Source: Thermoplasmata archaeon
Lineage (GTDB): Archaea; Thermoplasmatota; Thermoplasmata; Sysuiplasmatales; Sysuiplasmataceae
Direction of reading: 5' to 3'
DNA length: 64,000 nt
Assembly (NCBI GenBank): GCA_021806165.1
Contig: JAJZXY010000012.1
Span: 1 to 64,000, forward strand
Shown here: positions 48,134-51,632 of the stretch, piece after piece
How positions within the stretch are numbered: the first letter of the stretch is position 1
Layout of the letters: every line of letters begins with the position of its first letter
Notes under the pieces: model-generated
Told to the model about the DNA's origin: nothing
Seen by the model: the letters and a program-made list of their open reading frames with translations, nothing else
Database searches by the model: none
Made by a program: the position numbers and the translations under genes

Positions 48134-48226
48134 CAATCCCCTATTGCGCAGGACTCCTTAGCCTGTCGGGCCACAAGCCGATGTTCGCCCGGCCTGGAGA
48201 TGCAGTGTAAGAAGAGGAAGTTCAAA

Positions 48227-49333
48227 ATGGATAAGAATGTTGATCCTGTTGTGGTGAAGAAACCAATGAAGGGCGAACATGTGGAAACAATTCCCGTCTG
48301 GAGCAGGGGCATCAGGCTGTCCAGGGCAGCCGCAGTGATATTCGGCATCCTCTGGGGAATTGACGGCTATTTCAAGTTCCAGAATTCGCTCTACACACAG
48401 ATACCGGACATAGTCCAGCAGGCAGGTGTGGGACAGCCCGCATGGCTCGGCGGCTGGTTCTCGTTCTGGCATGGAATTGTTTCATACAGCCCCATGCTGG
48501 TGACGTACGGCACGGGCATTCTTGAGCTTTCAATCGCCATTGCGCTTATTGCAGGCTTTGCCAGGAAGATTGCATACATAGGCGGGATAATCCTCGGTCT
48601 TTTCATCTGGTCCGTCCCCGAGGGATTCGGAGGGCCATACGGCCCGGGGTCTGTGACTGTCGGCGGAGGCAACATATATGCAATTGGCCTGCTTTTCATG
48701 ATAGTCCTGAGCGCCACATACGGAAGGGACAGGTATACCATTGACTTCATGATCGAGGAGAGATTCCCCGGCTGGAGGAGGGTGGCGGAAGTACCGAGGA
48801 TTTCAGGGCAGCAGCTTGCAGGCTGGTTTGCAAGGAATTCCATGAAGCTCAGCAGGGGAGCCGCGATTGTGTTCGGCCTTGTCTACCTCACCGAGGCATT
48901 CCTTGCATTCTACTACAACCTCCCCGGAAACATCGTAGGGGTGGTGCAGGACCAGGCGTCCGGTGCGCCCGCTTTCCTCTCAGGCTGGTTCTCGTTCTGG
49001 ACAGGGCAGGTCACTGCGGCGCCGCTCTTCTATGCATACCTGTGCGGCATCCTGGAGGGCGCACTTGCCATTTCCCTCATACTGGGCCTTGGCAGGAAGA
49101 TTGCATACATGGGCGGAGCTGTTTTTGCAATACTTGCCTGGGGTGTAGGCGAGGGTTTCGGCGGCCTCCCTGTCCCGGGATACACAGACCCGGGTACGGG
49201 AATAATACAGGCAATTGTGTTCATCATACTCCTCGGACTCAACGCGACTCACGGGACAGATCCGCTCACACTCGACTCCAGGATAGAGAGCAGGTTCCCT
49301 GCATGGAGAAGGATATCGGAGATGTCATACTGA
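48227..49333 (+). CDS. Tandem-duplicated DoxX-like membrane protein
   Basis: 368 residues made of two similar halves (about 22-190 and 205-362). Each has the order SRGAAIVFG-type helix, WFSFW, GILE, R-K-I-A-Y-x-G-G, W-x-V/G-x-EGFGG and ATYG/ATHG, with four helices. The fold resembles DoxX/DoxD proteins, some of which take part in thiosulfate or quinone redox chemistry; the activity here is unknown. The ATG at 48227 follows AGAGGAAG. The gene is divergent from an HTH_10 regulator and overlaps the HemC-like gene by nine bases, tail to tail. Confidence 0.75.
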   Translation: MDKNVDPVVVKKPMKGEHVETIPVWSRGIRLSRAAAVIFGILWGIDGYFKFQNSLYTQIPDIVQQAGVGQPAWLGGWFSFWHGIVSYSPMLVTYGTGILELSIAIALIAGFARKIAYIGGIILGLFIWSVPEGFGGPYGPGSVTVGGGNIYAIGLLFMIVLSATYGRDRYTIDFMIEERFPGWRRVAEVPRISGQQLAGWFARNSMKLSRGAAIVFGLVYLTEAFLAFYYNLPGNIVGVVQDQASGAPAFLSGWFSFWTGQVTAAPLFYAYLCGILEGALAISLILGLGRKIAYMGGAVFAILAWGVGEGFGGLPVPGYTDPGTGIIQAIVFIILLGLNATHGTDPLTLDSRIESRFPAWRRISEMSY

Positions 49334-50182
49334 CCCTCCCCTCTCTGCAAACGATGCAGCTGCGTCACTGGGGATGAAATCCCTTCCCCGGTCCAGAACA
49401 CTCCTCAGCTCGCCGGTCCCGTCAGGGGAGAGCGCCTGCAGATACACCCTGTACCCTGTGCCGAATGCACTTACTGAAGCGCCGTGCAGCATGCCGCGCA
49501 GCGAGTGGATTCGGGAAAGAGCCAATCCAAGCGAAAGCTCCTTCTCAACCTCTGCTGCCGTCTCCGGATCGTTGAGCACCGAAGCAAGCCTTTCCCCGAA
49601 TTCAATATCGCCGGACAGTATGCATGCGGCAGCCTGGCCCGGACAGGGCACGAAATGTGGGAGGGGCATGAGATGAGCTGCATTTCCTGGAGAGGGGACG
49701 TAATGTGAAAGTTCCATCTCGTGGCAGGGGACGAGTGCGCCTGCAATCAGCCCTCCATCGACCCTTGAGAGGAGACGTCCGGCAGGCAGATCGCTCATCC
49801 TTGCGTCTATATCCCTTCTCGCCCTGAGCAGCTGGGCCCTCAGGAGGCGGGAGCTGCAGACGACGCTGCTGTGTGATGGAATCCTTGTGTAGCCCGACCT
49901 TGATACCATGCATGCGTTTCTTCTCCCCCTCCTGAGGACGGCGATGACTGAAATGCCTTCGGGGAGTGCGGGGGGCAATTCATCTGCCCAGCAGAGTGCC
50001 ATTGACCGCCCTCCATGCCCGAGAGCCTCAAGGAGCCTGCCCCATCTTGACAGCCTGCGGCCGCCGGGGATGTATGAGACCCTGAGCACGATGCCTGCGT
50101 TCATCCTGAAGGCTGACGCAGCCTGTTCCGCAACAGAAGCTGAAGCGGCGTCTCTGAATGCGATCAGTTCCGGTGGCTTCAT
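49325..50182 (-). CDS. Degenerate hydroxymethylbilane-synthase (HemC)-like protein
   Basis: 285 residues following HemC from end to end: LPEGISVIAVLRRGRRNACMVSR (residues 73-95) for the family's LPEG...AVLxRxDPRDAxxSR; CSSRLLRAQLLRARRDID (109-126) for GTSSLRRxAQLxxxRPDL; AGRLLSRVDGGLIAGALVP for DTRLxKLxxGxxDAxxLA; FVPCPGQAA for the P-x-x-G-Q-G motif; LASVLNDPETAAEVEKE (199-215). Key residues are changed: the dipyrromethane-cofactor Cys is absent (SLRGMLHGA for GGCxxPxGA), the tandem Arg pair is shifted, and HSxKD reads CWADE. Probably not a tetrapyrrole synthase. TATA-like GTTTTTAATTC lies near 50220-50230. Confidence 0.65.
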   Translation of the reverse strand: MKPPELIAFRDAASASVAEQAASAFRMNAGIVLRVSYIPGGRRLSRWGRLLEALGHGGRSMALCWADELPPALPEGISVIAVLRRGRRNACMVSRSGYTRIPSHSSVVCSSRLLRAQLLRARRDIDARMSDLPAGRLLSRVDGGLIAGALVPCHEMELSHYVPSPGNAAHLMPLPHFVPCPGQAAACILSGDIEFGERLASVLNDPETAAEVEKELSLGLALSRIHSLRGMLHGASVSAFGTGYRVYLQALSPDGTGELRSVLDRGRDFIPSDAAASFAERGGSV

Positions 50183-50284
50183 CTCACTGCCCCATAAGGA
50201 GGAGGATGCACCGGCTGAATTAAAAACTGACCCGGGGCTGCCGAGTCCTCACCCTCCGGCGAGCCCCCTGAAAAATCCTGCAAC

Positions 50285-50851
50285 TCAGTCGAAGGTGGAG
50301 GAGAGAAGGGTGTGCCTTACCTTCCCTCCCCTTGCGGACATCCGCCGCAGCCTCTCCACCCTGAAGTAGGCTGGCGGATGAGGATCGAGCCTCAGCCAGT
50401 CGAAGACCCTGACGCCTGAAGAGTATTTCCGGTAGTAGAGCTGGGTGAAGCTGATGTTTTCAAGGGCTGATGCGAGCATTTCAGGCCTTCCTTTATTGTT
50501 CGCCGACTCAGTGTCAGCGCGTGCTTCCAGGAACTTGCCCACAAGGAACACTATGCCGAACGCGAGCAGGAGGTAGAAGCCGCCTGTATACATGAATGAT
50601 GTAAGGGCGGACAGTATCAGCGGGTCGCGCCACTTGACATGTCCTATCTCATGCGCTATCACTGATTCGAGTTCGTCGTCTGAAAGTGCCTCAAGCGTCC
50701 CTGCGGTGACTGTTATGGTAGACCTCGACGGCGATATTCCCATCGCGGAAGCATTGTCTGCAGGCGTGTTGTCAACCACTATGTGCGGGACTGGCATGCC
50801 GAATTTCGAGACTGCCCTTTCGACGGACGCATATTGGTGCCTGGTGGTCAC
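50285..50851 (-). CDS. M48 (HtpX-like) metalloprotease, catalytic half
   Basis: 188 residues with the M48 core: PHIVVDNTPADNASAMG, TITVTAGTLEALSDDELESV, zinc motif HEIGH (His67, Glu68, His71), a hydrophobic hairpin, and EARADTESAN with the third zinc ligand Glu. The usual N-terminal membrane segment is missing; the gene upstream on the same strand (50922-51632) ends with just such a segment but in another frame. The GTG start at 50851 has a strong GGGGAGGT ribosome-binding site four bases away, so the half may be made separately. Likely membrane-protein quality control. Confidence 0.78.
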   Translation of the reverse strand: MTTRHQYASVERAVSKFGMPVPHIVVDNTPADNASAMGISPSRSTITVTAGTLEALSDDELESVIAHEIGHVKWRDPLILSALTSFMYTGGFYLLLAFGIVFLVGKFLEARADTESANNKGRPEMLASALENISFTQLYYRKYSSGVRVFDWLRLDPHPPAYFRVERLRRMSARGGKVRHTLLSSTFD

Positions 50852-50921
50852 CCTTACCTCCCCTTCCCCTACAGAGAGTCCCTTTGACTCGAGGACCCCT
50901 CACAGCCCCCTCCGTGTCGCC

Positions 50922-51632
50922 TCATCCCGATTCCATTGCCTCCCTTACCCCTTCCCGCACCTCAGCGGCATACCTTCCCCTCCTAATCCTCCTGTAATTC
51001 TGGGGCGAGAGCCGGGCGGAGACCGTGATGACATCCGGCTCATCCCTGGAGGGGCGGACGGAGCCCATCAGGAAGGCTATCCTGCCGGAGAAGAAGAGTG
51101 CGAGGCACTGGACAGCTATCAGCGCGTAGTCGCCAAGGAGCATGACAAACATGAAACTGAAAACCAGGAAGAGGAGGAAGAGGTTCATTGTGCTGCCCCT
51201 CATTATACGCCTCAGGAAGTTGTGCCTCGACGCGCCTGCTGAGCGCGTGCCAATCTTCCCGCCGCAACCGCCTCCGGGGAATTTGAAAAGGCGCTGGAAT
51301 GTCCTGAGTGCGAATTCAAGGCTGTCTGCCGGCCTTCCGGGCCAGTCGCCTGCTGCCTGCGCCTCCTCTTCCGGAACCTTCGCCATTATTTCCAGTATAT
51401 CCTGTCCGGAGGTGGTGCCCACGGAGGTAACCCTGGAGGTCAGCATATTCACCTCGAAGGCGAAGTGGCAGACGCCTTCCACAACGGCTATTGAGATTTC
51501 GCCTGAAGCAAGCCTCAGGTATGAGGTGGAATAGTGCTGTTTCAGGAAATCGACAAACCTGCCGAAGTGGCCGGGTGACAGCCATTCCAACGGCAGCGCG
51601 TGCCTGGGCTCAACACGGTTGACCTCCATCAT
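50922..51632 (-). CDS. Membrane protein, probable N-terminal half of a split M48 peptidase
   Basis: 236 residues: a soluble N-terminal domain (about 1-120, unrecognised), then two adjacent hydrophobic helices (about 148-190, NLFLLFLVFSFMFVML and ALIAVQCLALFFSGRIAFLMG) and a basic segment DVITVSARLSPQNYRRIRR that resembles the region preceding the catalytic domain of archaeal M48 proteases. It stops 70 bases before the catalytic half begins. Stops in both relevant frames between them mean no single frameshift joins the two. Either a genuinely split protease or a decayed or misassembled one. Confidence 0.55.
   Translation of the reverse strand: MMEVNRVEPRHALPLEWLSPGHFGRFVDFLKQHYSTSYLRLASGEISIAVVEGVCHFAFEVNMLTSRVTSVGTTSGQDILEIMAKVPEEEAQAAGDWPGRPADSLEFALRTFQRLFKFPGGGCGGKIGTRSAGASRHNFLRRIMRGSTMNLFLLFLVFSFMFVMLLGDYALIAVQCLALFFSGRIAFLMGSVRPSRDEPDVITVSARLSPQNYRRIRRGRYAAEVREGVREAMESG

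Follow-up and report, generated by a model that had tools for sequence, protein, structure and literature searches.

The window analysed here, a 64,000-nucleotide stretch of Thermoplasmata archaeon DNA, contains a gene for a homolog of hydroxymethylbilane synthase (HMBS, HemC) that has lost the cysteine carrying the dipyrromethane cofactor, and its product is very likely a maintained pseudoenzyme devoid of HMBS activity (Table 1). HemC is normally one gene and one enzyme, held tightly by its covalent cofactor and arginine-lined cleft. The explanation that we favor on balance is an HMBS-fold pseudoenzyme, here called pseudo-HemC, which arose by duplication on the stem of its genus, was kept by selection, and has a repurposed cleft. 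In this genus an old enzyme scaffold was probably put to a different use; if so, a second copy without the cofactor and cleft chemistry, yet under selection, would show that the HMBS scaffold has uses beyond tetrapyrroles.

Table 1. Positions of the pseudo-hemC gene, its diagnostic codons and its neighbors in the window.
Feature	Position	Strand	Basis or remark
Pseudo-HemC, HMBS fold, without cofactor cysteine	49325..50182	-	Intact 285-aa ORF
TATA-like TTTTTAATT, 36 bases 5' of the pseudo-HemC ATG	50218..50226	-	Consensus match only
C64 codon, E. coli H80 position; Cys in 4/4 orthologs	49991..49993	-	Alignment
CWADE replacing HSxKD; catalytic Asp84 to Glu	49979..49993	-	Alignment
C109 codon, E. 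coli T127 position, GTSSxRR loop; Cys in 4/4 orthologs	49856..49858	-	Alignment
FVPCPGQ, retained structural segment (HMBS FVPAxGQG)	49634..49654	-	Alignment
R229 codon, E. coli C242 position (dipyrromethane-cofactor cysteine)	49496..49498	-	Alignment; SLRGMLHGA at 49478-49504
DoxX-like double-repeat membrane protein, convergent	48200..49333	+	3' end overlaps pseudo-HemC end by 9 bases; neighbor in 4/4 genomes
M48/HtpX-like protease gene, upstream, broken	50285..51632	-	Frame change near 50920; 13-aa deletion in membrane segment

Homology to HemC and loss of the active site

The window protein has a single Pfam match, to PF01379 (Porphobil_deam), scoring 21.6 bits where the cut-off is 22.1; in a genome-wide PF01379 search it reached 22.2 bits, and it scores 14.2 bits against a cut-off of 164 for the NCBIfam equivalog TIGR00212. 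Taken alone, its Pfam score would be read as borderline, which is the one point in favor of a protein unrelated to HemC, or similar to it by chance. Against this, three sister proteins exceed the PF01379 cut-off (37-49 bits), and a profile built from the four orthologs matches HMBS crystal structures among PDB sequences at E 3e-15. The AlphaFold (AF2) model of the window protein (mean pLDDT 89.2, pTM 0.88) is predicted to have the three-domain HMBS fold. Its top 32 Foldseek matches are all HMBS structures (best E 1.7e-20, TM 0.79; none of the 32 weaker than E 9e-16), and the next matches, with E-values of 1e-6 to 1e-8, are YhfZ, periplasmic binding proteins and LysR effector domains. The model of the G001 ortholog gave the same outcome more strongly (Foldseek E 4e-22, TM up to 0.87), although neither model is independent of the homology inference because canonical HemCs are present in the alignment behind both. 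Chance resemblance is ruled out by these family-profile and fold searches, leaving it with a vanishingly small probability, and the HemC homology proposed in the first-pass annotation, for which structure prediction had been suggested as a check, is upheld.

The reading frame runs unbroken from ATG to stop over 285 codons, as previously described, and codon usage is best in the annotated frame of the six, with a weaker fit than for the neighboring genes. A promoter-like element had also been reported: the TATA-like sequence is indeed present 5' of the ATG, but no evident conservation was found 5' of the pseudo-hemC genes of the three sisters compared.

Residue columns, numbered as in E. coli, were placed by alignment with canonical HemCs. 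Of the 32 canonical rows, 31 have Cys in the C242 column; the window protein has Arg there, and the sisters have Ser, Pro or Ala. The D84 column within HSxKD holds Glu in the window protein and Gln in G001 and G003, with Asp retained in the G002 copy only. R11, S13, Q19, K83, R131, R149, N151, R155 and R176 are substituted in all four copies. The six substrate-binding arginines (R11, R131, R132, R149, R155 and R176) are all lost in the window protein, with R132 the only one retained in the sisters. Its residues at both R131 and R132 are Leu, with an Arg one residue further on, LRGN is absent, and the conserved (N/D)H..(T)R segment corresponds to LNDPETA. The alignments therefore agree with the initial reading of the sequence, which had described SLRGMLHGA without the cofactor cysteine, CWADE in place of HSxKD, a displaced substrate Arg pair and LNDPETA as a HemC segment. 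A separate case was noted in a Pseudogracilibacillus MAG, whose HemC (L061:2967-3752) reads FAEGEQAPIGG at the cofactor-cysteine site and IRGP for LRGN, with HSLKD kept.

Strongly conserved columns were divided into 22 that contact the pyrrole chain or carry the cofactor, with contacts taken from Table 1 of PMC3945110, and 23 others. The clade has lost 19 of the former and 12 of the latter (Fisher p 0.023), a column being counted as kept when retained in at least three copies (3/22 contact; 11/23 other). The bias is present in G001 (p 0.002) and G003 (p 0.005); for the window copy alone it is not significant (3/22 contact versus 7/23 other columns kept, p 0.28), because this copy has lost many structural columns too. 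Published work describes how C242 acts covalently and what D84, R149 and R155 do (PMC8561815, PMC3945110), and since these residues are absent here, HMBS chemistry is not expected: on the known mechanism, pseudo-HemC would make no hydroxymethylbilane, being unable to assemble dipyrromethane or polymerise porphobilinogen. Binding of a tetrapyrrole, an idea raised at first reading, is weakened as well, and appears unlikely in the manner of HemC, because almost every copy has other residues in place of the Arg, Ser and Lys that hold the acetate and propionate groups.

Origin, locus and recurrence of the second copy

A canonical paralog, as expected for a HemC-derived pseudoenzyme, was found by the genome search proposed at the outset: hemC (L001) lies on contig C27 of the same genome, with all motifs, between hemB and hemD, and the window gene is therefore a second copy. 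A canonical hemC together with a low-scoring second copy is present in all four genomes of the genus examined (G000-G003), the three sisters among them being public MAGs (Thermoplasmata archaeon YP4.bin116, YF1.bin95 and DBS2-5.bin48), and all four genomes examined from the sister genus contain canonical hemC only. A scan of genome contigs did not find clade members beyond the three sisters. In trees, the four pseudo-HemC copies form one clade (100/100), sister to the HemCs of their own genus (97/87), and a second, unrooted tree agrees in placing the clade beside the genus HemCs; hemC duplication on the genus stem is thus the most likely origin. Within the genus, pseudo-hemC has been passed on vertically. 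The window copy has the longest branch of the four (2.0, with 1.06 for the G002 copy).

The search for close homologs in related Thermoplasmata, also proposed earlier, showed that the three sisters carry pseudo-hemC in synteny. In all four genomes the gene order comprises a class-V aminotransferase, an HTH_10 regulator and the DoxX-like gene convergent on pseudo-hemC, and beyond pseudo-hemC, where present, the M48/HtpX-like protease gene and a zinc-ribbon protein. The HtpX-like gene is intact in G001 and G002 and absent at the site in G003; with the gene broken in the window, the locus evidently loses genes, and pseudo-hemC is kept nonetheless. The idea that HtpX is a functional partner in an operon with pseudo-hemC was therefore dropped, and no conserved partner gene that would point to a function was found at the locus in the four genomes. 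As to the neighbors themselves, the DoxX-like protein has paralogs in most genomes of the family and only sub-threshold Pfam matches (DoxX, DoxX_3), the window HtpX-like protease has an extra N-terminal region, and in G001 the zinc-ribbon gene and HtpX are separated by a DUF6159 membrane protein (L053:766-1602) that is not seen at the window locus.

When 400 genomes of the class were surveyed, other weak second PF01379 matches came to light. In family f6, four genomes of genus g49 (G288, G215, G357 and G243) contain Cys-less HemC copies of about 260-267 aa (GAGPFSP, GHGRSSP) with altered HSxKD and LRGN regions. In G288, G215 and G357 the Cys-less copy directly adjoins a second, divergent HemD homolog (L106:6751-8250, L107:5983-7504, L108), with canonical hemC and hemD located elsewhere. 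In G243 (99% complete; L109:6516-7313) and in G237 (another genus, 91% complete; L110:6411-7283) the Cys-less copy is the sole PF01379 match, and neither canonical HemC nor HemD was detected. Placing the f6/g49 copies and the window clade together made the tree 40 log units worse (AU p 0.012, in a test limited by long branches), and on this basis a single origin of the Cys-less HemC copies across the class was rejected; the cysteine was therefore lost at least twice. Tentatively, binding or sensor proteins without catalytic activity may have evolved from HemC more than once in Thermoplasmata, with at least two independent Cys-less lineages, one accompanied by a second HemD and in some genomes outliving the real HemC, giving the HMBS scaffold a second, hitherto unrecognised cellular function outside tetrapyrrole synthesis. 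For annotation, a low-scoring archaeal PF01379 match need not be an enzyme, and haem synthesis may be attributed to genomes that lack it, which makes the tetrapyrrole pathway status of G243 and G237, with a Cys-less HemC and no HemD detected, of interest.

Selection and possible roles

The first-pass annotation had described a maintained pseudoenzyme rather than a decaying gene, and had called for a test of purifying selection. Between G001 and G003, dN/dS is 0.16-0.22 for pseudo-hemC (three methods), compared with 0.15-0.16 for hemC, and a branch codon model gives omega 0.18 for their tips (2dlnL 59 versus omega = 1), demonstrating purifying selection in these close sisters. On the window branch omega = 1 was also rejected (2dlnL 13.2, about p 3e-4), the estimate of 0.12 itself being unreliable because synonymous sites are saturated, and purifying selection on the window copy is indicated. 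The window protein matches 52 of the 94 columns where the G001 and G002 copies agree, which together with the omega tests argues against neutral drift over most of its branch. It is nevertheless the most eroded copy; its branch is long, its codon score is lower and its GC2 is raised, which hints at partial relaxation, and constraint may have been lost recently in the window species. A relaxed duplicate drifting in this species and free of stops by chance, with the gene in use in the sisters, would account for the longest branch, the retention of 7 of 23 other conserved columns compared with 12-14 in the sisters, the weaker codon bias and the upstream HtpX gene already broken; it is rather improbable in view of the intact 285-codon frame, the result on the window branch, the columns shared with the sisters and the confidently predicted fold. 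Maintenance is thus well founded for the sister pair, with the canonical hemC elsewhere and synteny in 4/4 genomes, and stands with these reservations for the window copy.

Two cysteines in the cleft, C64 and C109, occupy positions that contact pyrroles in HMBS (H80 and T127); canonical rows have His or Asn in the first column and Thr or Ser in the second, and both are Cys in all four copies, a conservation sampled over about three independent lineages. They may possibly be functionally important, and could supply a thiol, metal or redox site. This same replacement of His/Asn and Thr/Ser would suit a new enzyme, in which the HMBS scaffold catalyses another thiol- or metal-dependent reaction, but the small number of lineages, the lack of an identified conserved acid/base set and a locus without a metabolic gene partner make such an enzyme distinctly unlikely. 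A regulatory partner of the real haem pathway, binding HemC, HemB, HemD or an intermediate and tuning flux, would be consistent with the invariable co-occurrence of pseudo-HemC with canonical hemC in the window genus, and with the independent Cys-less copies adjoining a second HemD in another family. It too is fairly unlikely, since pseudo-hemC lies away from the haem genes in the window genus, the carboxylate-binding arginines are lost, and G243 and G237 keep the Cys-less copy without detectable canonical HemC or HemD.

A new role for pseudo-HemC is plausible, and a ligand-binding or regulatory role for a two-domain protein is a serious possibility. According to the preferred explanation, hemC gave rise to a duplicate on the genus stem, after which one copy would have stayed in the hemB-hemC-hemD cluster and, judging by its intact motifs, still makes hydroxymethylbilane, and the other would have come to adjoin the genes for the DoxX-like membrane protein and the membrane protease. 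The alignments show that the second copy has lost the lysine-bearing loop and the cofactor cysteine, together with most of the Arg, Ser and Lys residues that bind carboxylates; it appears from the model and conservation to have kept the three-domain fold and core residues, under the selection seen in two sisters and indicated for the window. With less confidence, the product could clamp another ligand or partner between two domains without catalysing a reaction, perhaps by way of its two cleft cysteines.

Comparison with known systems

No report of a HemC-derived pseudoenzyme was found in the open-access literature searched. With HMBS, or porphobilinogen deaminase (HemC, PF01379 and PF03900, TIGR00212; E. 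coli 1PDA), pseudo-HemC has in common homologous sequence, the predicted three-domain fold, FVPxxGQ and several core residues; unlike HMBS, it lacks the cofactor Cys, HSxKD, LRGN, R11, R131, R149, R155 and R176, is encoded outside the hem cluster and scores far below the TIGR00212 cut-off. The type II periplasmic-binding-protein and LysR effector-domain folds, which come next after HMBS among the structural matches (E about 1e-6 to 1e-8), share a two-lobed small-ligand cleft with it, but pseudo-HemC has the HMBS third domain and its sequence kin are HMBS, with no signal peptide or DNA-binding domain identified. In its duplication from an active enzyme, loss of catalytic residues, retained fold and maintenance by selection, pseudo-HemC resembles other enzyme-derived pseudoenzymes.
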